From: Leucosporidium creatinivorum
Taxonomy: Eukaryota > Basidiomycota > Microbotryomycetes > Leucosporidiales > Leucosporidiaceae
DNA length: 64,000 bases
Reading direction: 5' to 3'
NCBI GenBank assembly: GCA_001600635.1
Contig: BCKL01000011.1
Coordinates: 705,762-769,761 of the forward strand
The notes below the pieces were generated by a model that worked only from the letters and a program-made list of their open reading frames with translations, was not told the origin of the DNA and ran no database searches. Positions 4,184 through 62,656 of this stretch are shown piece after piece. Each line of letters begins with the position of its first letter. The stretch's first letter is position 1. The position numbers were made by a program, and so were the translations under genes.

Positions 4184-6892
4184 CTACAACTCCCTCCTCC
4201 TCTTCGCTTGACCCCGCTTTACACCCTTCAAGTCGTAGAACGCCATCATCACCAAGAATGCCAGCTGCCTCTCCTCGCCCGCTTCGGCGCCCTTCCTCTC
4301 CCTCATCTCGGCCCAAAACTCCTCGTACACCTTCTCCGCCTGCTTCCCTTTGTTCAACCCCAACAANCACAGCGCCCACAGCCCCTTTCCCTCGACATCT
4401 CCACCCTCGATGCCAGCTGGTCCATCGCCGAACCGAGTGACTCGGCGCGAGAGCATCCCTTCGAGCTGGCGGAGGGAGTCGAGCGAGGTGGAGATGGAGG
4501 TAGAGTGTGCTTGGCGCTGGGTGATGGAGTGAAGGATGGCGAGGAGGGTGTTGGAAGGGTAGAGCTTCCTCGCTCGGTCGAGGACGGCCAATCGCTCCTT
4601 GGGCTCAGCGGAGGAGAGGGCGAAGTAGAGGGAGAGGAAGGGCGTGGAACCTTCGGTAGCGAGCCTCGTACTCGAGAGTAGATCCTGATCGGCGAGTCCC
4701 GACTCCCGACTCGCGATGACCATCCTCCAGCACTGAGCCGCTCGGGGCTGATCCATCTGCTCGGTCGCGATGAAGGCGAGTCGAGCGTGTGCGGCAGGGT
4801 GGTCGATCCGCATGCTGATTGCCTGCTCGAGGAGCTGACGAGCCTCTGCTGTCCGACCGCGGGTGTGGAGCTGCTCGCCGAGGAAGGCGAGGGCCGAGTA
4901 GGAGGTAGCCGGATCGAGAGCAACAGCTCGGCGAAGGTGCTGCTCCGCGAGGATCCAGTGGGACGAGGTCGAGTCGCTGGTGGCGCAAAGAGAAGCGTAC
5001 ACCTTCCCGAGGTACTCGTGCGCGCAAGGGAGCTCCTGGTCCCTCTTGAGCGCCGCCCTCAAATACTTGATCGCCTCCTTCCCTTCGCCGAGCCTCCATT
5101 TAGCCCTCCCCAAACTGGCCCTAGCACTCGCATTCCCACCATCCATCCTCAAAGACCGTTCGAACGCTCTGCACGCTTCCTCCATTGCCCCCCTCTCGCC
5201 CATCATTCTCGCCAGTCGATAGTGCGCTCGACCGAGCCATTCGGCGGCACTGGCTTTGTCGGCGGGGGCGCACGCGAGGTTGGAGATGGTGGTGAAGTGG
5301 GTGATGGCGAGAGTAAGGTTCGAGGAGTGGTAGGCGCTGATGGCGAGGGGAAGGAGAGAGCGAGCTTCGGTGATGGAGGAGGGGTTGAGCTCGAGGAGGG
5401 GAGAGGGCGAGCGGGAGCGAGAGCGAGAGCGAAGGCGCTTGATGGGTTGCGAGCGGGCCATGTGGAGGTGGTAGATGGCGAAGAGAAGAAAGGAGAAGAG
5501 GGCGGTTAGGAGGGTGTGGGAGGTGGAGGGTCCGAGCGGGAGGGGTGCGGCGGAGAAGTCGTCGAGGTGGAGGGTCGCCGAGGTCGAGTTGTCGAGGAAG
5601 GGGGAGAAGAGAACTTCGGCTGGTGGAGATGGCGCAGAACGGAAGTGACCGCCAATGATGGGTAGCACGTGTGGGTAGGCGGAGGACGCGAGCCATCCGA
5701 CTGCGAGAGCGAGCGAGAGCACCTTCCAACGCCAGTCGGCCGAAGAAGCGGAGGCAGGCGGAGTGGTCGACTCCTCTTCAACGGGAGCGGGTGCTCTGAA
5801 AGGGAGAACGGTCAGCAATTGTGGTGATTCTCTCGCCTGGAACCCGCCTCAACTCACATCTCGACGTTCTTGCCCTCCTCGGCGATTCCCTCCATGCCCG
5901 GCTCCTCAACCACGTCCTCATCCAGCTTAATAGGCATCGTGTCACTCCTCCACATCGGTTCCTCTTCCTCCATCAGGTCCTCTCCACCCTCTTCGCTGCC
6001 AAAGTCGAACAGCACTCGACTCTCGCTGCCGGTGAGCGAAGTTGCCGTCCCACCTCCGCCGCTGAGGCCCATCCGAGCTTGACGAGTGACGGCTGCGATG
6101 GAGGAGAGGGCATCTTCCGAGTCGACCTGTACTAGAGCGCATCAGCGAACGCCTTCGACGCAAGTAAGAGAAGAGGCAGCTCACCACCGACTCGCCGCTC
6201 CCTTTAGCCATCGCCATCGTCTCCTCCAACCACCTCGAGAAGTCACTCTGGCTCCTTCTCGAGCGCAGGATGAGATCGGCTCTCTCNTGTTGACTACCCG
6301 TGATGGGGAGGCAATACTCGGCGACGTCGTCGTCGTCCTCTACCGGCGCCGAAGGGGTCTCGGACCACTCCTGCTGCAGAAGCTCACGCCCGTCGTCGGA
6401 GCATTCCTCCTCCTTGATGTAGATGTGGTGCTCTTCTTCATCATCGGTGGGAGCGTCTTGAAGAGGTGGCAGGAAAGGCGATTGCTCCTCCTCGCGATGG
6501 AAGAGGGAGGGGAAGGGGTTCGGCGAAGGCGAGCCGAGTTGAGACCAGGACGAATCGGAGAGAATGTCGACCTTCGATGGTGCGTGGGATCCCATTCGAG
6601 GAGAGACTTCCCTCTTGAGCGAACGAGGAGGCGTCCTCAGTCCTTCCTCGTCTGGAGCGCTGGCGAATTCCTGCTCGCTTGCCGACGACGACGAGTGACC
6701 GGCGACCGAATCGGCCAGCTCCTGTGTAGCAGAGTAAGGCTCTTCGGTAGATCCCGTGTCGCCAGTCTTGACGGAGGCGGGGGAGAAGAGAAGACGACGG
6801 GCGCGGTCTGAGGCGGTGAGCGCGGACTGGAGGGAGACGAGCGAGGAGGAGAGGTTCGGCGAAGAGTGAGCTGAAGTCGGTGCTGAGGGCAT
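4184..6892 (-). CDS. membrane-anchored TPR-repeat protein
   Basis: Three exons (6892-6185, 6126-5858, 5795-4184) join to 862 residues. Residues 1 to about 325 are acidic and Ser-rich, without a clear fold. Two hydrophobic segments follow: WKVLSLALAVGWLASSAY, and TLLTALFSFLLFAIYHL about 55 residues later, then a basic RSRSRSRSPSP run. The C-terminal half is built of helical repeats of TPR type, for example AEWLGRAHYRLARMMG, ACRAFERSLRMDGGNASARA and AIKYLRAALKRDQELPCAHEYLG. The layout suggests a protein-interaction scaffold on an internal membrane. I do not recognise the family. Two single N bases (4367, 6287) fall inside the coding exons and leave one residue each unresolved. Confidence 0.8.
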
Positions 6893-11958: not shown

Positions 11959-14948
11959 TCAACGCCTAGCGAGCGCCTTGAGAGCCAAAGCCTCGAGATC
12001 CACCTTCGGTCCCATATCCTCATCATCATCGCTGTCCTCCCTCCGCCTGACCCTCCTCTTCTTGTTACTACTGCTCGACGCTGACTTGGCAGCCTCCTTG
12101 GCGGCCTCCTTCTTGGGGTGGTAGAATGCTTCTCCGTCATCGTCCGAGGGATCCGAGCCGAGGAGATCGTCGAAGGAGGGGGAGACGTAGCCGCCGTCTT
12201 CTGAGCCGTCCATGGAGGCGATCTCGAGGCCTTCGCCGTGCTCTCCCTGCGTAGTAGACGGATGCAAGAGGGTCAGCAAGCGGCTCGGCGGTCAAAAGCG
12301 AGAAGAAGCCACCACTCACATCATCCTCAAAGTCCCTCTGCTTCCTCTTCTTCTCCCTCCTCTTCTCCTTTGCCCTCTCCTTGTCCAGCACATCCGCCTT
12401 CTTCAACGCCTCCCTCTCGGCCTCCACAAACTTCTCCCTCTGCGCCTTGGCATCACCATCCGCCTTGAACTCGTCCTCGCCGATCAACTCATACAGCTCA
12501 TGACTCTTGCCCTCCTCGTCGAACACGAGCTTGGAGGGGTTGGGCCGAGAAGCGAGCATGGCCTTCTTCGATTGCCCCATCTTGAGCTTGCGCTTGGAGA
12601 TGTTGTGCGATTCGGGCAGCTCGGAGTCGACAATGTCGTGGTCGGCGCGCTTGAGAGTGATGAAGTCGTCGTCGTTGTCCTCCTTGGCGGCGCCGGCGGT
12701 GAGGGTGTCCTTATCCTCGTCGTCGTCGTCCGAACCCGAGTGGTCGATCAGCTTGGTGTAGTGGTCCGAGAGGATCGTTTGACTCTTGCGGTTGAACATG
12801 CGGTCGTACTTGGTCTTGACGCCGCCGTTCTTCTCCTGTGTGCGAAAGAAGCGTGGTCAGTCGCTAAGCTCGGCGAAGGGGGTGGTCCAGAGAGAGCTCA
12901 CCTTGACAGCTTCCTCTGACTCTGCACCCTCCTTCGTCGGCACCTCCTCGTCCTCGACCTCACTCTCCTCTTCGCTATCCTCCTCCTCATCATCGCTGTC
13001 CTCCTCACTCTCGCTATCGCTCTCCTTCTTCATGCCCGCCTCCTTCTTGAGGTCCTCGACCTGTCGCACAGCGTTCTTCTTGGCAGCAGCGGTCTGCTTG
13101 CTCTGGAACTTGATCCTGGGAGCCCCGGCGAGTCCGAGCGAGGTAGCGAAGGCTTCGAGGGGGAGGTCGTCGAGCTTGAAGATGGTCTTGTCCTTCTGCA
13201 GAAAGATTGAGCGGACGTAGGAGATGAAGGCCTAAATAATGATCTCGAGATTAGCAAGCGAGTACAGGAGAGATTACAGGTAACAAGCAACTCACGCGCT
13301 GAGCCAAGAACTTGATCTCAGGGTACTGGAACGCCGCCGACTGAAGCTGCGATTGGATCGACTGCTTCTTCTTGTCGTTGGCCTTGATCTTGCCAATCTC
13401 GACCTTCTTGGCCTCCAGCCGCTTGACCATGCCCTCCTCCTCACTCGGCAGCAGGAACAAGAGCGCCTTGCCCTTGGCCTCGTAACGAGCCGTCCGTCCA
13501 ACACGATGAATGTACGTCTCGACGTCCTCGGGGCAGTCGATCTGCACGACCCAGTCGATGGAAGGGAAGTCGAGTCCGCGAGCGGCGATGTCGGTGGCGA
13601 AAAGGATCGAGTGCTTGGCCGAGATGAAGCGCTGGTAGATCTCGAGACGCTGAGTCTGCTTCTGCTTGCCGTGCATGTGGAGGAGGGGTACTCCGGGGCG
13701 GAGATGGCGGAAGTTCTCGTAGACGAAGCGGACCTGCACAGGAAGCGAAAGTCAGTCGGCGAAGCGAACGCCGAGAGAGGCCAAGGAGCGTACCTGCTTT
13801 CCGCTGGAGAGGAAGACAATGGTCTTGGTGAAGAGATGAGTCTTGATGAAGCTCCAGAGGACGTCGAGCTTCTCGTTGAGCGGTACGATGAGGTAGTGTT
13901 GCTCGAGATTCTTCGGTGTAGCCTGGTTGGCGGCTCCGGACTCGTCCTCGTCTCCCTCCTCGGCCTTGCCCTTCCCCTTGATGACGCCTTCTCGGACGGC
14001 GACGTATTGCGGGTCCTTCAGCGAGAGACGAGCGAGATCCTTGACCGACTTGGTCTGGGTCGCCGAGAAGAGGAGAGTCTGGCGCTGCTTGGGAAGGTTG
14101 GCGACAATGGCGTTGATGGAGGCGGAGAATCCCATATCGAGGATACGATCGGCCTCGTCGAGGACTGCAAGGATCTGAGTAAGCTGGTGCTCAGAACGGC
14201 GGGGGGAGGGGGCTCACCGAGCATCTGGAGCTGATCGCACTCGAAGCCGAGCGTCTGATCCATGTGCTGGAGGAGACGTCCAGGAGTAGCTACGAGAATG
14301 TTCATGCGCGAGAGTCGCTCCTGCTCGTCCTTCAAGCTCTTTCCGCCGATGATCAGGCCAGCCGAGAATTGATGCTTGTGGCCAATCTTGCGCAGGACCT
14401 CGAATATTTGAACCGCCTGTGGTGAAGATGATACGGTAAGCTTAAGTCCCCTGCTACTGCTCTGCTGCACTCACCAGCTCCCTCGTAGGACTAATGACTA
14501 GCGCTCCAAGGCCATCGTTCGGTCCCCACTTCTTCCTCAGCAGGACCTCAAGAATGGGGATGAGAAAGGCGAGCGTCTTTCCACTTCCGGTCCTTGCTGC
14601 TCCGAGTACATCCTTGCCCTTGAGCGCGAGAGGCAGCGAGCGCGACTGAATGTCGGTGAGCTTGGTGTAGTAGGCGGATCTGCGAGCGCGAAAAGTGAGC
14701 GGAGCTCTGCGGCTCAGAGCTGTAGGGGAAGCTTACTTGAGTCCTTCGAGAGTAGCGCGGGATAGCGGGAGGTCGCTGAACTCCTGTACGTCCTCAGCGA
14801 CAAAGTTGTCGACGGCGTCTTGCAGCTCCGCAAGCTCTGCTCGATCCTGTCGCCGCTTGTCCTGGCGCGGGTTCGACTTGGCTGTAGTAGACTGCTTTCC
14901 TTTGCCTTTGCCTTTCGGCGCGTGGTTCGGCTGTGTTGGTGCAGGCAT
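11959..14948 (-). CDS. DBP4: DEAD-box RNA helicase Dbp4/Hca4 (DDX10)
   Basis: About eight exons. Motifs in order: a Dbp4-type lead [18 protein letters not shown], then motif [10 protein letters not shown], Ia PTREL, Ib [30 protein letters not shown], and later [21 protein letters not shown] and the HRVGRTAR of motif VI. After the helicase core come the family's C-terminal region ([16 protein letters not shown]), acidic low-complexity blocks and a basic tail, as in Hca4. The enzyme acts in 18S rRNA maturation in the nucleolus, where it helps release U14 and assemble the SSU processome. The motif II exon begins after an intron that splits the codon just before LDEAD. The splice at 14737/14679 joins K to [11 protein letters not shown]. 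Confidence 0.93.
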
Positions 14949-24313: not shown

Positions 24314-25942
24314 TCAGGCAGCGACAGTGAGGAGCACTTGTGCCCTCTTCCACCCCTCCTCCAACGCCCTCTCCGCCTCCCTCATCTCATCCCTCACTTC
24401 CTCGGCCCTACTCCTCCCTCCAATCCTCGCCCGCCTCTCCTCCCTCGCCTCAAAATCAACCACAAACTCCTCGCTCTTCTCCAACCCCTGCAGATCCTCC
24501 TTCGTAGCGATGAGCTGACCGCGCAGAGCACGAAGCTTCCGGCCTGCGTCGCCTGTGGCCGCTTGAGTGACTTGAGTGACTTCGTTCATGGCGGACAGGG
24601 CGGAGATGAGGGAGGAGGTGATGTCACGGAGGGAGGAGAGTTCGGCGAGGGCAGGAGAGGTCGTTGCTGGCGGTGGGGGACGGATGGCGGGTTCGGAGGA
24701 TGGGAAGGAGGAAGCGTGAGGGGCGCCGTCCGGGAGGGGGAGGTCATCCGAGGATGCGGAAGGGGAGAGGGATCGTGTCGAGGCGAGAGATGGACTCGTA
24801 TGTTCTTCAGGATCCTCGTGTGATCCGTCCGGATCCTCGTGTGATCCGTCCATGCTGCCGTCGTCTCCCTCGTCTCCCTCCTCGCCGTTCCGCTCGTCCT
24901 CGTCTCGGGGCAGCTCGTCCAGCTGGGCCAACGCCGCCTGCCATCCCACATCGTTCCGCGCAAAGATGCGTTCCATCTCTACGAGCTCGCGGACCTGACC
25001 TTCTCGCTGCCTGGCGAGGTCGTACAGCGATTTGACGACCGAGGAAGCGAGCGATTCGAGGATGGGCTGTCGGTCGGTGTAGTCGGCAGGGAGGGTGGGG
25101 TCGGCACTTGTTGACGATACGGCGTGGGGGTCGATCTCAGCGGTAGTGTGTTGTCGCAAGTGGGAGAGGAAGGTGCCGGTCGTCGGGAGTGAGCTCTCGA
25201 GCGCCGACGAGGACTCCGAGAGCGAAGCGTCGCGAGCTTCCTGCGCGGCCTCGTCGTCGGGGGTGTCGGCGGAAGGGGTAGAAGTTGAATATGTAGCGCT
25301 TGATGTGGATGCGATGCGTCGAGGTGTAGCGCTCCCAGCGCCGGCGAAGGCGTCCTGCAGCTGCTGCCCCAGCTGAGCCTGAGCCGACTCGTTCGGCCGT
25401 CTCGAAATCCTCCTCCCAGCCATCTCGAGCATCCCTTCTGCTTCCAACTCCTCCTCCTCTGAATCGTACCGCTCCTCCTCGCCCCCGCTCGCCCCTTCCT
25501 CCTCCTCAATTCCCAACTCCCTCAACAAGTCGCGGCTGTTGGATCTCCCTGGACTCGACGCCGAAGCCAGCTCGAATGCCAGCGAGAGGCGATTCGAGTT
25601 CGGTGAAGGAGCTCCTGATCCTGCTGCCCGCCTCCGTGGCGTCACATCAGCGAGCTCGTCGCCAATGTCGTGTCCGAGCGCGTCGCAGGAGCCATGCCTC
25701 GACCTTGATGGCGGTGTAGAGGTAGTGCCATAGTACTCGTCATCCGAGTGGGAAGAAGAGATGGCGTTGCCGAATCCTGCGCCCAGGTCGTCTGACAGGG
25801 CTGAGCCAAAGCCGCTGCCCAGCTCAAGCTCTCCCAGCTCGTTGCCAAAGCCTCCCGAGAGCATGGATGGAGAGGGCATGTCGAGGAAGGCGGGATCCAG
25901 TTCATCTTCCTCCATGGCGAGCGCAGCCGACGAGACGAGCAA
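24314..25942 (-). CDS. acidic coiled-coil protein, unrecognised
   Basis: One uninterrupted exon of 542 codons, unusual in this intron-rich window. The start may be the methionine at 25942 or the one nine codons later (MEEDELDPAFLDMPSPS). The N-terminal third is Gly/Ser/acidic (GGFGNELGELELGSGFG). A central helical part has VVKSLYDLARQREGQVREL and VEMERIFARNDVGWQAALAQLDEL, and the C-terminus is a coiled coil (LSSLRDITSSLISALSAMNEV, RAEEVRDEMREAERALEEGW). A 21-bp tandem duplication at 24810-24851 repeats GSHEDPD. I recognise no family. Confidence 0.75.
   Translation of the reverse strand: MLVSSAALAMEEDELDPAFLDMPSPSMLSGGFGNELGELELGSGFGSALSDDLGAGFGNAISSSHSDDEYYGTTSTPPSRSRHGSCDALGHDIGDELADVTPRRRAAGSGAPSPNSNRLSLAFELASASSPGRSNSRDLLRELGIEEEEGASGGEEERYDSEEEELEAEGMLEMAGRRISRRPNESAQAQLGQQLQDAFAGAGSATPRRIASTSSATYSTSTPSADTPDDEAAQEARDASLSESSSALESSLPTTGTFLSHLRQHTTAEIDPHAVSSTSADPTLPADYTDRQPILESLASSVVKSLYDLARQREGQVRELVEMERIFARNDVGWQAALAQLDELPRDEDERNGEEGDEGDDGSMDGSHEDPDGSHEDPEEHTSPSLASTRSLSPSASSDDLPLPDGAPHASSFPSSEPAIRPPPPATTSPALAELSSLRDITSSLISALSAMNEVTQVTQAATGDAGRKLRALRGQLIATKEDLQGLEKSEEFVVDFEAREERRARIGGRSRAEEVRDEMREAERALEEGWKRAQVLLTVAA
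24810..24851. repeat. two-copy 21-bp coding tandem repeat
   Basis: The unit GGATCCTCGTGTGATCCGTC plus one C occurs twice in tandem without mismatch. On the coding strand it encodes the duplicated peptide GSHEDPD and keeps the frame. Confidence 0.85.
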
Positions 25943-26134
25943 GGTGAGGTGGAGCGGAAGATTCGAAGAAGGCCAAGTTGCGGACGAGCCTCGCCGTTCG
26001 CTTCCAGCTTTCGCACGGGCTATCTCCAGGTCGGCCTCCCTTTCATCGCTTGCAGTCTCTTCGACTGGTAACGAGAAGACTAGTATCTACAATACACAGG
26101 GCAGCCCTACGGCGCCTCAACATCTAACTGCTAC

Positions 26135-29100
26135 CTAGACAAACGCCCATCCCTTCTCTCCCTCGGCCCAAGCTGCCAGCTCAGCAGCTGGAGCTCCCCT
26201 GAACCTCGAAATGTCGGGCAGTACACTCTGCTCAGCTCCTCCCTCACCCTCTACTACTGACGAGGCGTCCCGTGAGGTCGAGAGCAGGCCAAAGCCGGAG
26301 CCGCCGACCGAGGTCTCGTAGGTCTCGAAGCCGGCGTCGGCGAGGGCGGCCTTAAGGTCGGTGAGGGAGGACTCGCTGAAGTCTGTGGTGGAAGCGAGAA
26401 TCAGCTTCGAGGTCGAGGAGGAGATGCGAGGCTAGAAAACCTACCATCAGGGATGATCGTCACCGCGCAACCTCCTCCACCAGCTCCAGTGAGCTTGGTG
26501 TGCAGTCCCCAAGGCTGCTCTCCCGTCTTGGCCTTCACCGCCTCCAGCGACGCATGACCGACTCCCAGAGAGACGAGGTGCGAGTGGTTCTCGTCGATGA
26601 GCTTCTCGAGCGTCGAGATCTGAGTTGACCGCGACATGTCCGAGTCGGTGAGGCAGCGACGGGCCTCGTCCGAGATGGCTTGGATGGATTTGAGGATGGG
26701 GTTGACGAGGTCGGGCTCCTGTGTGATACGGGGGAGGTCAGCTTTCCGAAGACGAGGGAAGAAGACCGCGAGAGAGAACGAACCTCGAGCTTCCGGCGAG
26801 CGACGCCGGCGACCAAGGTCTTGGTGTCGCGCGAGACCTTTGTGTCGGTGAGAAGGAACCGAATCGACTTGAAGCTGTGTTATAATGGAGTCAGCAACGC
26901 CGTCGCTCGCGTAGAGAACACGCCGAGCTCACCCGTGCAGCCCGTCGAGTCCTCCCTGACGACCCTTGACGGCCTTGGTGAAAGCAATAGCACCGCCCAG
27001 GCTCGCCACCGTGTTATCCACCCCACTAGGCGTTCCGTGGATGATCTTCTCGGCGGTGAAAGCCCAGGCATTGACGACGTTGGCCTGCTCGGGAGTGATG
27101 GCTCGTCGACCTTTGTGGGCGGAGGGGGTGGAAGGAGGGAGAGGAAGGTGCGAGTGGGTGTAGAGGAGGGCGGAGGAGAGGCAGACGGAGTAGGCGGCGG
27201 AGGAACCGAGGCCGGCGCCGATGGGGAGGGCGGAGCGGACGGTGAGGGTTTGAGCGGGGCTGGGAGAAGGAGAAGCGAGTCAGCTACAGGATCGCAGCGA
27301 AGAAGGACGAGGGCTCACCGCTTGTCCTCTGAGAGCGACATGTAAAGGTAGAGGAAGGCAATCTCTGACTGAACGACCTTGGGGTCGACACCTCGAACGA
27401 CCTTCTGCGCAAGGACATCGACGAAACTTTGGTCGGGAGTCGACTCGGGACGAGGCGCCTTGGCGGAGGAGTGGATCTGGTCCCATGGGAGCGAGGCGAT
27501 TTCCCAAGTGGCCTCGAATTCGAAGTCGGGGAGAACGAGCGAGATCTTGCCGTCTTGACGGGATTCGGCGAGGGCGTAGCAGCGCAGGTCGACGCTGCCG
27601 GCGATGGCGGTCTGTGCAAGCGGAACGGTCAGTTGGAACGCTTCGAGATGATAACCAGAAGTGACTCACGATGCCATGCACAACAGCGTGCTCACCGAAG
27701 AGGATGACCTTCCCCGGCGCCGAGACGATGAGGCTATCGACCTCACCCTCGACCTTCACCTCCTCACCCTCCTCCTCCCTCTCCTCAGCCGTAAGAACCC
27801 TCTCCAACTTGGCCCTCGATCCCGCCTCGTCGACAACACGAACCGCTCCCGCCTCGAGGAGAGCAGCCTCGAGGTCGTCGATGAGGTCCTCGGGATCCTC
27901 GATACCGACGCAGAGGCGGATGAGGTCTTCGGGAAGGTTGCGCTCCTTGCGGATTTTGGGGTCGATGGAGGCGTGGCTGTTGCGATGCGAAGGAGGGTCA
28001 GCGGGATGAGCTGGGATTGAGAGAAGAGAGAAGGAAACGCACGACATGAGACAAGGCATCGAGATGAGCGAGTTGATGCACCCGAAACTGACACTAATGC
28101 CCCACAGCCTTGCCGCGCCTACAATCCTCTCACTAAGCGCTTTATCCTTGGTCTCGAAACTCAGAACAGCTCCCGCTCCCGAAGCGAGACGATCATGGAT
28201 CTCCTTGCCTGGGTGACCAGGGAGGCCGGGGTAGTTGACCTTGAAGCCGAGATCGTGGAGGTATTTGGCGACGAGGTGCGAGGTCGCTTGTTGCTTGTCG
28301 AGACGGAGGGCGAGCGTCTTGACGCCGCGAAGGAGGAGGAAGGAGTCGAAGGGCGAGAGGCCGTTGCCGATGGAGTTGATGGTGAAGGCGATGCCCTGTA
28401 AGAAGGAGAGAGGTTAGCATCGACACATGCGATGCCGAAAGCGCTCTACTCACCTTGGCGACGTCCTCGCGGTTGCAGCAGATGACTCCGGCCATCAAGT
28501 CGTGGTGGCCCGAGAGGTACTTCGTTCCACTGTCATACACGACATCTGCGCCGTGCTCGAGTGGGCGCTGGAGATAAGGGCTCATCATCGTGTTGTCCAC
28601 GACGATGATGGCCTCGGGCTTGTGCTGGTGGACCATCGCCGAGATGGCGGCAATGTCTGCGATTTGGAGCAGAGGGTTGGTGGGCGTCTCGAGAAGGACC
28701 ATGGTGACCCTCTCCTCGGGGTCGCTGAGGACGGGGATGAGAGTCGAAGGCTTGGTGGTGTCGAGGTGGTGCACTTTGATGCCGTTGTGAGCCTTGAGGT
28801 AGGTGAGGAGACGGTTCGAGCCGCCGTATAGGTCGTTGCCGGCGATGATGGAATCTCCGGGCTTGAGGAGACGGAAGATGACATCGAGGGCTCCCATGCC
28901 GGAGGTGACGGCGAAGGCGTGGCGAGCAGAGGAGATCTTGGCGATGTGGTGCTCTGCGAAGGAGCGAAGGGAAATGATTGCGATGTTAGTACAGGTTCAG
29001 TAGCTCGTCGCACATGTTTCTGGATGTAGTACAAGTTTGCCTCTGACTCTGTACACCATCAACCATTCTCCCTTCCGCCCCCATCTCCGCCTGCGACGAT

Positions 29101-29716
29101 AAAGGCGCAATCGCTCTCGTCGTCGGCTGTAGCTCGTCCTGTAGGCATCGGGGATGATCCGGACCCGAGCAGACAGCATCCTACACTCGTCTCCATCCCT
29201 ATGCTGACCCTGCACCCCACCGACAGCCCTCGCTCGGTCCTCCAACGCCCATCTCTCGGATTGACTCTTCCCCGCGGTTGACGGTGGAGCGGCTATTTGG
29301 AGGCTGTAGCGTATGACTCACCGAGATGGCTCCTAGTAGGGTTACCGCTGCGAGTGTAATCGTACTGTCCTCCCATCCCTTTGAAAGTAGCCGTCTGATA
29401 GATGGGCACGGAGGAGGAGCCGTGCTGGTCCTTGTGAGATGGGTCCGGGTTGTCGACGGTAGCGCATTGCGTTGCGAATCGGTACGGCTTGGCTGTGTGT
29501 AGGAGAGCTGCTTTAATGGGGTACAACTCGCTGAAAGAAGAGAAACGTACCGCGCAAGAGAGAGGAAGTGAGCGAGTTGCCCCCGAGCGAACTGGCGGCA
29601 GAGTCGAGGGGGGTGGAAGTGCCCGAGTGAGCGTCTGAGGATGCCATCGTTGAAGCTGTAGCTCGATAGCCCTTTGCGAGAGAGCTGAGAATCGAACGAG
29701 AATGGGCGGAGAGCAA
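26135..29716 (-). CDS. ERG12: cystathionine beta-lyase / mevalonate kinase fusion
   Basis: One multi-exon gene encodes two complete enzymes, roughly 950 residues. The first half is a PLP-dependent cystathionine beta-lyase (Str3/Met-2 type): PIYQTATFKGMGGQYDYTRS, TSGMGALDVIFRLL, GGSNRLL, VVDNTMMSPYLQRPLEHGAD, the Schiff-base lysine in SGTKYLSGHHD, and HASIDPKIRKE...IRLCVGIEDPEDLIDDLEAAL at its end. The second half is mevalonate kinase: SAPGKVILFGEHAVVHG, PIGAGLGSSAAYSV, GTPSGVDN and KLTGAGGGGCAVTI. Exon 27976-27670 carries the lyase C-terminus, an acidic linker of about 40 residues (LTAEEREEEGEEVKVEGEV) and the first kinase motif without a stop or methionine. The enzymes make homocysteine from cystathionine and phosphomevalonate from mevalonate. 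A leader before MASSDAH looks mitochondrial, so two start sites are possible. Confidence 0.88.
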
Positions 29717-29846: not shown

Positions 29847-30754
29847 ATGTCAAAGGTGAGCCCTGGCCTGTAGCTGTACCGCTTCCCAACGCGCTCGCTA
29901 ACTCTCTCGATTCGCTCGTCGCCGCTGTAGCATCACACGGATCTCATCATGTGCCGCAAGCGTACGTACAGATTCCTGTGTAGCTCTGTAGACCGTCGCT
30001 GACCTCTTTAACCTCCTACAGAGCCCGGTATCGGTACGCTCCTCTCTCGCTCCCTTCTCGCCGCCACTTTCTGCTCTGTAAGCAAGCTGACTGACCTCCC
30101 GTTCTCGTACAGCTATCGGCCGCATGTGCGAGAAGTGTGACGGCAAATGGTGAGCTACATCCCTCTCTTCTTCCCTCGTTCAGCAGCTCCCAGCTGACTC
30201 GCATCCTCTCCCCTCCTCTTGTACCACAGCCCCATCTGCGATTCCTACGTCCGTCCCGCCGAGCTCGTTAGGATCTGCGACGAGTGCAACTTTGGAACGT
30301 ATGGAGGAAGGTGCATCATCTGCGGTTCGAACGGTGAGTTTGGCCTCGAGAGGGTGGCAGCAGAGTGAGAAGGGCGTGCTGACACTGTTGTATTGCAGGA
30401 ATCTCGGATGCGTACTATTGCACGGTGAGTCCTGCTTGCTGCACCTGGCGTGCTCGGAGTGGCCAGCAGTCGCCTCGACCGAGCATCAACTCTCTCCTCG
30501 CCGAGCCTTAGCCTTTCCCTTGCCGCAGACTGATCTGTTTGTCCTCTCTCCACGATACAGGAGTGCGTACGGCTGGAAAAGTCGCGCGATGGCTGCCCCA
30601 AGATTATCAACCTCGGAGCAAGCCGAACCGACCTCTTCTACGAGAGAAAGAAGTGAGTCCTTTTGCTGCTGCCGTCTTCTCTCACCTCTCGTCTCGTGCT
30701 TCTACTGACCTCGCCTACTCTTCGCGCAGGGCCGGCGCCTTCAATAAGGGCTAA
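29847..30754 (+). CDS. RDS3: PHF5A/Rds3 zinc-finger splicing factor
   Basis: Eight exons give about 110 residues, the length of the human protein. The sequence is nearly invariant through evolution: [94 protein letters not shown]. The CxxC pairs form the knotted zinc cluster that sits in the SF3b complex beside the branch-site adenosine. Exon 3 (30022-30033) is a 12-nt microexon coding for PGI and flanking bases. The start lies 130 bp from the start of the divergent fusion gene, so the two share a short promoter. Confidence 0.95.
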
Positions 30755-33530: not shown

Positions 33531-36251
33531 TCACTTCTTGCCGTGCAAACCTCCGACGCGGTCCTGCTCGAGGTGGATCGTCCAGACGTTGGGATCCTTC
33601 TTCTGCTTAACGATAAAGCCCTTGATCTCCTTCTCGCCCTCCATCGCTTTGAGGTCCTCGAGCTTCCTCTCGTCGATGGGCGTGCGGAAGCCGACGTAGA
33701 GCTCAATCTCGCTCTTGCAGAGGGCGCAGCCGTTCGTGCTCTTCGTCTTGACCTTTGGGCTGATCTTGTCGAGCTGCTTGAAGAGGCAGTCGTCGCAGGC
33801 GAGGTGGCCGCAGGGGCGGTAGACGCACGAGGCGAGCTTGTCCGAGTGGGCCGAGCAGGGAGGAGGCTTGGCGGGGCCGAGGAGCTGGTGGAGGGGAGCG
33901 CGGCCGGCCTTTTCGGGGGTGAGTGAGTTGGCGACGATGGCGTCGACCTCGGCGAGCGATTGGACGTTGGCGAAGTGACCCGCTTGCTCGGTCGAGAGCG
34001 CTTCCGAGTAAAGGTTGAACCAGGGGAGATTGTTCTCCCTGTAGGTCGCGGGCGTGATGGGGTTGATCGAGTAGATCGGGGAGATGGTGCCCGTCAAGAG
34101 CTCCCACATCTGCAGGGAAGTCATAGAGAGTCAGCCCCGGGCCGAGAAGGTGAGAAGAGCCAGAGTGGAGCGTACCGTCGAGTTGACTGTGTGGACGAAG
34201 ACTCGACGAGTAGGCTCTCTCGAGTAAGCGCGAACGGGGAGGGTGTCCTTGACGATGTCCTGCTTGATCTTGCCTCCCGCCGTCATGCCCATCTTCGAAG
34301 GCGGCGCTCCTCCTCCCCTGCGACGAAGCAGCCAGTCAATCTACCGGTGTAGCTACGGTGCAGGGCTCGGCTTACCTGAGAGGAAGGACGAGATGGATCA
34401 TCGACTCGTGCTCCATGCTGCAGTCTGAGAGCAGGACACGCCGCGTCAGCCGAGGCGAGGGGGCAGGAAGAGGGCCAGACGAGCACGTACCACTGATGGT
34501 GCGAGAATCCACAGTCGCTCTTCCCAGAAAGATGAGACGTTGCTGAGCGTGGGGTATCTCGGTGGCGTTCTCGACCATGTACTTGACGTCGCTGATCGCG
34601 TTGGCGGGAGCGAGAGCGAGCTTGAGGTCTTTGCCCGTCGGGAGTCGGACGTTAATGTACATCGTCGGAGGCCCCATGTAGTTGAGCTGAGGCAGAGGAT
34701 GCGTATCCGAGTGAAGGACGAGCTGATACTCGGCAGAGTGCTTCTGATCTCCTCCCGACACGAGCAGCGCGAGATGCTCCACCGAGGCCTGGAGCAGACG
34801 CTTCGTACTGCGACTGCATCAAGTCCGACTCCGGTCAGCGCGTCCATAACAGCTACCCCCTTGATTGCTACCCCCGAACTCACGTTTGGCGAAGCGTGAA
34901 CTGGCCTTCGAGGCCGAGCTCGGCGGGCGTCTGGTAGAGGTCGTTGCCGTCGATGACGCGGTCCTTGCCCTCGGAGTCCCGCGTGACGGCCTCGAAGCCA
35001 CTCTCGAGACGGTCGAAGATGTCGAACTGGACGCTGCCGACCTCGGCCTTGCCCGTGAGCTGCTCTTCGACGGTGTAGCCCTTGCCGAGCGGCATGGCGA
35101 CGAACTGTGGGAGTAAGGCGAGGTGTTAGCTCGGCTACGCATCTGAAGAAGGGAGATCCTATCTGTGGACCTTTAACTCACCTGACGGACGACTCCGGGC
35201 TCGGTGCAGATGCCGTCGAGCCAAGGTTGCTTGCCGGCGACGACGTAGTCCTGCAGCTCGGGGTCGACTTGAGACTCCTCGGCATCACGAAGGAGACCCG
35301 AGCGGACGTTGATGCCTGTGGGAGTACGAGGAAGAGGCCAGCGGCGCCCTCTCCTGGCTGCCCCCTCCCGCCTCGGCGCTCACCCCCGACGTGGATCTTG
35401 ATGGCGTGCTCATTCCCATGAGCGGCGAAGCTCATCCACATCGCCTCACGCTGGGAGATAGAAAGAACGAAGCCTCCACGAGACGCGATGGTAGCAGGAA
35501 CGTTCCTGCACTCAGACACGGGCTTGAGGGAGAACTCGCCGAGACCCTGTACAGCAAGAAACGGGTCAGGGCGCGAGCCTCGGTCCCCTAAGAGAGCAAA
35601 AAGGACGTACAGGAGGCAGAAGGTGAACCTGAGTGTCGTCTGGAACTCGCAGGGTGCGGTGGAACTTGACCGAAACGTCGCCAACGCCGAGCTCGGTCAG
35701 CCCACGGTACTGGTCCAGCGCGACCGAGGAGCTCTCGCCTTCATCAGGAGCCCTGCGGAGTCCAATCTGCACAGAGAGACTGTGGCTGTACTCGAGGAGG
35801 GTCGTAGACCTGCGCGCGAGGTTGAGCGAGCTCGATCTGGACGGGGGAGAGAACGGCAGCAGCTCACCTTCCAATCACGAGTCCGCTCGAGTCACTGGTA
35901 CGGTACACGGAAGGTTAATCGGCCGAAGCTACGGTCACTCGTCGCTTGAGAGTGTAGAGGAGATCTTTGACGTTGTGCGCTGCTCAAGGCGAAGCGACGT
36001 TCGTCAACCGGCCGCCCGCTCTGCTGCTCGAACGTCCGTGAAGACGACGTACCAGAAGCCTCCAACTCCTTGTAGACATCTCCAACCGTGGCATCAGACG
36101 GCAGTACGAGCTCTCGAGTCGTCGCAGTCGCCTCCTCGCTGGGCTGAGGCTGAGCAGACATCGAGGTCGTCTCGCTGCTGAGAGGACGCTGGAATACGGG
36201 GCGAGGAATGAGCCCGGTGACGAGCACTTTAAGAGTACGACTATTGTCCAT
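33531..36251 (-). CDS. Ubl/RING family protein, copy B (one in-frame stop)
   Basis: About ten exons. N-terminal beta-grasp-like segment: LKVLVTGLIPRPV, RELVLPSDATVGDVYKEL. Middle block: SECRNVPATIASRGGFVLSI, KQPWLDGICTEPGVVRQ, then FVAMPLGKGYTVEEQLTG and VQFDIFDRLESGFEAV. A ubiquitin-like domain follows near 34670-34500 (PTMYINVRLPTGKDLKL, IPHAQQRLIFLGR). Near 33870-33710 is a RING-like zinc site: C-x2-H in PPPCSAH, YRPCGHLACDDC, then C-x2-C in GCALC. It ends WTIHLEQDRVGGLHGKK. The combination suggests a ubiquitin-pathway protein, perhaps an E3 with built-in Ubl. Exon 2 has a TAA near 35915, where copies A and C have a sense codon, and no alternative splice that I can find removes it. I do not know a name for the family. 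Confidence 0.65.
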
Positions 36252-36571: not shown

Positions 36572-39258
36572 TCATTCCCACCCCCCATCGCACCGACCGC
36601 CGAACCTCCGAACGTCGATCTGCTCGACCGAAGGTGGGCCAGTCCAATGTCTCCCGCACAGAGCGCCGATCTTATCATACTTGAGATGAATCGTCCAGAC
36701 CGTCTCATCCTCCTTCTCCCCGACCGCGACACCCTTGATCTCCTTCTCCCCCTCCATCTCCCTCAACTCGTCGAGCATCTCCTGATCCACTGGCCTCCGG
36801 AAGCCAATATAGACATCCACCGGCGCGGCACAGATGTTGCACACGCCTGTAGCCTTATTGTGCTCGTCGACAGTGATCACGTCGAGTTGGTTGTAGAGGC
36901 ATTCGGCGCAGGCGAAGTGGGAGCAGGGGCGGTAGACGACCGCGGAGGGCAGATGAGGGTGAGCGGAGCAGGGAGGTGGGTTGGAAGGGTCGAGCATCTC
37001 GCGGATGTGGGCGTGCTGTTCGGATAGCGATTCGGAGATGCTGGCGTCGACTTGCGTGATGGAGCGGACGGCGTCGAAGCGACCGGCTTGGGAAGTCGAC
37101 GAGGCTTCGGAGCAGAGGTCGATCCACGGGAGGTTGTTCTCGGCGTAGGTCGAGGGGGAGATGAGACTAGTGGGGCAGACGGTGCCGGTCATGAGCTCCC
37201 ACATCTGTGAAAGGCGAGAGAAGGTCAGCGCCGAGCAGGCGGAGAGAAGCCGAGCGAGAACTCACCGCCGAGTTGACGGTGTGGACGAGGACACGGTAAG
37301 AAGGCTCCTTCGAGTAGGCGCGGATGGAGAGAACATCCTTGACAATATCCTGCTTGATCTTGCCTCCAGCGGTCATCCCCATCGCGGTCGGTCCTGGCCC
37401 TCCTCCGCTGCAGGTCGAGTGTCGAGTCAGCTTTACAGCGCGAGGGCGAGGCGAGTTGCAATATACTGGACGTACATCAGCTGAAGTACGAGATACAGGA
37501 AAGATCCCTTCTGGATGTTGTAGTCTGCGCCAAGAGGGGGTCAGCTCCGCCCTCCTCAATCCTCGCCGAACGGCAGCCGGGCTCGCTTACCGGCAAGAGT
37601 GCGACCATACTCGAGCTGCTTGCCACCATAGATGAGACGCTGCGAGTGCATAGGAATGTCTGTGAGATCCTGGATCCTTTCCTTGATGCGGTCGATCGTG
37701 TCCGACATCTCGGCGCTAAGGGGCAGGGTGTCGCCTTCCAGCGTCTTGACGAGGACGTGCATGTCCGCCGGCACGCCGAGGAATCCCTTCGCGGTCGAGT
37801 AGCCCGACGCGAGCACGAGTTGAGCTGAAGGGTCGTGCAGGTCGATGCCTTGCGCCGCGAGAAGGCTGGCGAGCGAGGTGTCGGGCGAGTCCTGGGTACC
37901 GCGATTGTAGTTGAAGCAGATTAGGTCAGCGACTAAAACATCATCATACATACGGAGGCGAGAAGAGCTCACCGGATACGCAGCTTCACCGCCTGCTCCT
38001 TCTCCAACGAGATCTCGGCGGGGGNATTGACGAAATAACGAGCGGGAACGACGTGCTCATGGCTCTCACGAGTGACGAGGGTCTCGAACTGATCGTCGAG
38101 GCGCTCGAAAATGTTGAACTGGATGCCTCCGACCTCGGCTCTGCCCGTGAGTTGCTCCTCGACGGTGTAACCTTTGCCAAGGGGCATGGCGACGAACTGT
38201 GGAAGTAAGGCGAGGTGTTAGCCCGTCTGCGCATCTGAGGAAGGGAGATTCTATCTGTGGACCTTTAACTCACCTGACGGACGACTCCAGGCTCGGTGCA
38301 AATGCCATCGAGCAAGGCTGCTTGCCGGCGACAACGTAGTCCTGCAGCTCGGGGTCGACTTGAGACTCGTCGGCATCGCGAGGGAGATCAGATAGAGCGT
38401 TGATACCTGTCGAACAAACCCGAGGCGGTCAGCCTCGCTGTATCGCCGCCTTCTCCCCCTCTCGACGCTCACCTCCGACATGAACCTTGACAGCGTGCTC
38501 CGTTCCTCGGCGCCTAGCGGAGTGTCTATCGGGCGACTTGAAGCTCATCCACATGGCCTCTCGCTGGGTGATAGGAAGGACGAAGCCACCTCGAGCGGCG
38601 ATGGAGGCGGGAACGTTTCGGCACTCGGAGACGGGCTTAAGGGGGAAGTGACCGAGACCCTGTGAAGTATGTAGAAGGTCAGCGGGCGCGCTCGAAGTGG
38701 CAGAGGAGGACGATTGACGTACGGGAGGACCGACTTGAATCCCGCCGTGCTTCGCTGTAGCTGCCGTCTTGTCCTCATTCTTGAGCTGGTATCGTCCGTC
38801 ACGCTCACTGAGCTGGTGGTTAAACTCCAGCAGCGAGGTGTTCCTGTAGGAAGGAGACGAGTGAGTGAACGCTCGGAGTAAGGAGCAGTGACGACGACAG
38901 AGACTACCTGCCGATCCTGAGGCCGCCGGAAGCAGCGCTGTCGTATGTAGACTCGTCGTCCTCCGAGATGGCAATCGCGCGGTCCAGCGTGTAGCCCAGG
39001 TCTTGAATAGCGTGACCTGTAGAGAATCGTTGAGCCTTTTGCCACAGCTGCAGCGCTGCTGTGGTCGCGCGTCGTATCAGCGAGCTCACCATAAGCATGC
39101 AACTCCCTGTACACATCCCTCATGGTAGCATCGGCAGGCAAAACGAGCTCTTGAGTCGTTTCCCTACTCGAGTTCGTAGAGTCTCCGCTGGCTTGTTGGG
39201 GGACTCGACGCCAATCGAGGGAGGTGACAAGCACTTTGATAGTGCTTTGGACGCCCAT
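36572..39258 (-). CDS. Ubl/RING family protein, copy C (one frameshift)
   Basis: Tandem neighbour of copy B, same strand, clearly diverged. Segments in order: IKVLVTSLDWRRVP, ELVLPADATMRDVYREL, AIQDLGYTLDRAI, SECRNVPASIAARGGFVLPI, QFVAMPLGKGYTVEEQLTG, GGIQFNIFERLDD. A ubiquitin-like domain lies near 37770-37600 (MHVLVKTLEGDTLPL, IPMHSQRLIYGGKQLEYG), then GGKIKQDIVKDVLSIRAYSKE. The RING-like site is PPPCSAH, YRPCSHFACAEC and VCNIC near 36980-36810. Compared with copy B one base is missing near 38320, turning the QPWLDGICTEPG reading into QPCSMAFAP and shifting the frame. The N at 38025 hides one residue. Without the frameshift the gene would be full length. Confidence 0.65.

Positions 39259-56784: not shown

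Positions 56785-62656
<5,872 letters not shown>

Follow-up and report, generated by a model that had tools for sequence, protein, structure and literature searches.

The gene described here, from Leucosporidium creatinivorum, is very probably the basidiomycete metC-MVK fusion, predicted to give one mRNA and one polypeptide in which a cystathionine beta-lyase is followed by a mevalonate kinase. It lies on the minus strand of a 64,000-nucleotide stretch of contig BCKL01000011.1, which we call the window. The preliminary description of this DNA proposed that the two enzymes are fused in one frame, and this is borne out by a frame of ten exons and 886 amino acids in which each half scores above the equivalog cut-off of its family. 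The same description knew of no published account of the fusion, which was mistaken, as it is found in PMC3342255, PMC3468542, PMC4129116 and PMC3720577. The fusion has been known since 2012, is typical of basidiomycetes and is ordinary for this lineage.

Joining the exons from 29647 to 26135 gives a single stop-free frame encoding a protein of 94.4 kDa (Table 1). The model is predicted from the DNA, with the start codon and exon borders picked from homology and splice consensus. All nine introns have GT-AG borders, and eight of them are 58–66 nt long, intron 2 being the long one at 368 nt. A CTNAY-like branch site is present in eight of the nine, intron 1 having none. The gene is intron-rich and eukaryotic; the GC content of the window is 60%. 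The window contains five N bases, none of them inside the gene. An Rfam scan of the window gave no match and hence no rRNA marker.

Table 1. Features of the predicted lyase-kinase fusion gene, in window coordinates.
Feature	Coordinates	Strand	Basis
Whole coding region, cystathionine beta-lyase / mevalonate kinase fusion (metC-MVK / STR3-ERG12)	26135..29647	-	exon joining, TIGR01329 + TIGR00549 matches
Exon 1	29647-29551	-	exon joining
Exon 2	29492-29322	-	exon joining
Intron 2, 368 nt, GT-AG	28954..29321	-	exon joining
Exon 3	28953-28454	-	exon joining
Exon 4	28395-28043	-	exon joining
Exon 5, junction exon, 307 nt: end of the lyase, acidic linker of 38 aa and first motif of the kinase	27976-27670	-	
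Exon 6	27611-27319	-	exon joining
Exon 7	27259-26933	-	exon joining
Exon 8	26874-26784	-	exon joining
Exon 9	26718-26445	-	exon joining
Exon 10, frame ends at 26135	26382-26135	-	exon joining
Exons 1-4, encoding the N-terminal end and the greater part of the lyase	28043..29647	-	PF01053 match finishes in exon 5
Linker (residues 418-455), free of stop codons and Met	27733..27846	-	hand-computed from exon table, matches codon positions
Mevalonate kinase portion, from the last part of exon 5 through exon 10	26135..27732	-	TIGR00549, motifs

The N-terminal half matches the NCBIfam cystathionine beta-lyase model TIGR01329 with 528.8 bits, against a curated equivalog cut-off of 487.5, and residues 460–800 match the mevalonate kinase model TIGR00549 with 210.7 bits, against a curated equivalog cut-off of 163.05. 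In Pfam the corresponding matches are PF01053 at residues 52–413 (3e-125) and GHMP_kinases_N at residues 577–662 (3.5e-07). A GHMP C-terminal match has a score just equal to its cut-off, and a galactokinase signature falls below its own cut-off. Among solved structures the best relative of the lyase half is 1ibj, a cystathionine beta-lyase that we take to be the Arabidopsis enzyme (a long match, 8.7e-106). The best relatives of the kinase half are the mevalonate kinases 2r3v (a long match, 5.8e-81) and 1kvk, presumably the human and rat enzymes respectively.

The catalytic motifs that the preliminary description had reported for both enzymes were located. In the lyase these are YTRSGNPTR, NDLYGGSNR, DSGTKYLSGHHD and LIRLCVGIED, which we take to include the PLP-lysine and the substrate motifs. 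The kinase half contains SAPGKVILFGEH, PIGAGLGSSAA, PSGVDN and KLTGAGGGGC, and its three GHMP motifs are at residues 459–475, 584–598 and 786–799. Both halves are complete. A pattern scan of the 886-aa protein found no PTS1 or PTS2 peroxisomal signal. No relatives of either half were found in the IMG/VR viral contigs, which is what one expects of a housekeeping gene in a fungus.

The junction exon of the gene model has the same coordinates and the same length of 307 nt as in the preliminary description, and it reads, as had been proposed, from the end of the lyase to the first kinase motif without a stop codon or a methionine. The linker lies between the end of the TIGR01329 match at residue 417 and the kinase motif at residues 459–475, and it contains 13 acidic, six basic and no methionine residues among 38. 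This acidic composition suggests that it is probably flexible. An AlphaFold2 prediction of the junction exon alone had a mean pLDDT of 40.9, too low for structural use. The conserved parts of the lyase and the kinase are separated by about 115 nt.

That the kinase has no start codon of its own was also upheld, there being no in-frame ATG in the linker. The only ATGs in the scanned region 28120–27600 are at 28059 and 28047, which are lyase codons, and at 27677, which is out of frame. Correspondingly, the only methionines among residues 352–620 are residues 369 and 373, in the lyase motif SLISMPCLMSHAS, and residue 567, which is past the first kinase motif. A separate kinase carrying all the motifs would therefore need a start within the lyase or a start other than ATG.

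The linker is neutral in codon usage, and neither this measure nor GC3 proves it to be coding. With training on the fusion gene alone the linker scores -0.04 bits per codon, compared with 0.48 for the lyase and 0.40 for the kinase; for the same DNA the other two forward frames score -1.62 and -1.02, and one reverse frame scores 0.49. With training on long open reading frames, some of which may be false, the linker is outscored by two of the three reverse frames and ranks 88th lowest of 848 segments of the gene. The linker has a GC3 of 0.74, compared with 0.79 for the lyase and 0.77 for the kinase. A donor-like site at 27843 on the minus strand scores 8.2, within the range of 6.0–11.3 for the real donors of the gene, the matrix being derived from the same nine introns. 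The splice scan of 28120–27600 listed no acceptor-like site above threshold within the linker. By hand arithmetic, splicing from this donor to the intron 5 acceptor would delete 174 nt without shifting the frame, and with them the linker and the first kinase motif, so that at most a minor isoform lacking both is possible.

An error of sequencing or assembly, by which a stop was lost or the frame shifted, could in principle have joined two adjacent genes. The neutral codon usage of the linker would fit such an error, as would the length of its open frame, which is not very rare by chance: a hand estimate from 38 open codons at 60% GC, multiplied by one third for the matching frame, gives about 0.1. 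The open frame alone is therefore weak evidence, and the case for the fusion rests on the absent kinase start codon, the short spacing and the published precedent. An unfused kinase would find no start codon in the linker, the conserved parts lie close together in a gene free of N bases, and the same fusion is described, in the passages that concern it, for many other basidiomycetes (PMC3342255, PMC3468542, PMC4129116, PMC3720577), which makes an artefact extremely improbable. The fused mRNA might instead yield separate enzymes, through internal initiation, through a shorter transcript from near residue 369/373 or through proteolysis in the linker. Two in-frame ATGs do precede the linker, and the linker is acidic and so may be exposed; the methionines in question, however, sit in a lyase motif that is also present in 1ibj, and the pattern scan found no 2A-type NPGP in the protein. 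We consider separate enzymes very unlikely.

The preferred reading is that of one polypeptide, most probably a housekeeping enzyme with two functions, each at an active site of its own. One promoter region, probably within the roughly 200 nt up to a divergent PHF5-like gene, would drive a single spliced mRNA, and translation from 29647 would produce both domains. The N-terminal PLP domain is predicted to release homocysteine from cystathionine, and the GHMP-kinase domain at the C-terminus to phosphorylate mevalonate, with the linker as the connection between them. The two active sites would act independently, and the fusion would fix their co-expression and stoichiometry. The preliminary description also suggested that the fusion may act as a regulatory device, coupling the supply of methionine and SAM to sterol and carotenoid flux. 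Sterol C24 methylation consumes SAM, which is in favour of such coupling; on the other hand, we know of no substrate, product or successive step common to cystathionine beta-lyase and mevalonate kinase. The fusion is retained across many basidiomycete genomes in the passages of PMC3468542 and PMC3342255, yet these name exceptions, Postia placenta in the former and Laccaria bicolor in the latter, and settle no purpose for the fusion. Neither the gene sequence nor the published passages lend support to coupling, and it appears unlikely. A stronger form, a physical or allosteric link between homocysteine/SAM supply and mevalonate use in which one half senses the ligands of the other, would explain the near-universal retention of the fusion in the basidiomycetes examined by the two 2012 papers; we regard it as a distinctly long shot.

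Upstream of the fusion gene, and divergent from it, is a gene with a PHF5 match at about 29847–30400 on the plus strand, presumably a splicing factor of the Rds3/PHF5A type; its start, at about 29847, was read by eye. The starts of the two genes are about 200 nt apart, and they may share a promoter region. An open frame without a Pfam match (24314–26086) lies just downstream of the fusion gene on the same strand. Elsewhere in the window, the minus-strand open frames 33534–34130 and 36575–37261 are 49% identical (94 of 192 residues) and are probably tandem duplicates; the former has a weak RING-finger match (PF13920) below the cut-off and the latter has no Pfam match. The open frames 57343–57684 and 58620–59588, also on the minus strand, give matches to the ATPase domain (PF00005) and the transmembrane region (PF00664) of ABC transporters, and are perhaps parts of one transporter gene. 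Two further minus-strand open frames contain TPR repeats (4187–5848) and a DEAD-box helicase match (13755–14213).

The present copy adds one more sequence to a fusion described in 2012. When such fungi are annotated or modelled metabolically, this one gene should be given both EC numbers. By analogy with the published genomes, we infer that the fusion is the only mevalonate kinase of the cell, in which case its loss should cost methionine and isoprenoid synthesis together.

In the passages on this gene, Liu et al. (2012, PMC3342255) describe the metC-MVK fusion in 12 basidiomycetes, Laccaria bicolor not being among them; the protein averages about 886 aa, and they infer that the fusion arose in the ancestor of Basidiomycota. 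It is there the only K00869 homologue and the only best K01760 match in the basidiomycetes analysed. An insertion of 16 aa is reported in seven metC-MVK proteins, out of 12 according to the text and out of 13 according to the figure legend. Wilson et al. (2012, PMC3468542) searched 81 fungal genomes, and in the relevant passages every basidiomycete examined apart from Postia placenta has STR3 with a kinase extension, no stand-alone mevalonate kinase is reported for the basidiomycetes examined, and ascomycetes have STR3 and the kinase as separate, unclustered genes. Later additions, both from mushrooms and each described in a passage of its source, are the 918-aa protein GME67_g of Lignosus rhinocerotis (PMC4129116) and a unigene from mycelium of Pleurocybella porrigens (PMC3720577), both with the two domains. 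Passages of the literature on red yeasts and their kin make no mention of the fusion, and the word "cystathionine" is absent from all of those papers that were searched for it.

The L. creatinivorum protein shares its domain order, an N-terminal lyase and a C-terminal kinase, with all of the fused proteins in these passages. Compared with metC-MVK (PMC3342255), it is likewise the product of one gene and no difference was found in the features compared; its length, which depends on the chosen start codon, equals the published average. With its kinase extension of some 450 aa, the protein belongs with the STR3 orthologues of PMC3468542 and does not differ from them in kind. GME67_g of Lignosus exceeds it by 32 aa (PMC4129116), and the Pleurocybella unigene comes from another species (PMC3720577). 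In Ascomycota the same enzyme families are encoded by STR3/met-2 and ERG12, two unclustered genes (PMC3468542), whereas here they are encoded by one. The fusion agrees with the published metC-MVK in both features compared, the order of the domains in one frame and the length.
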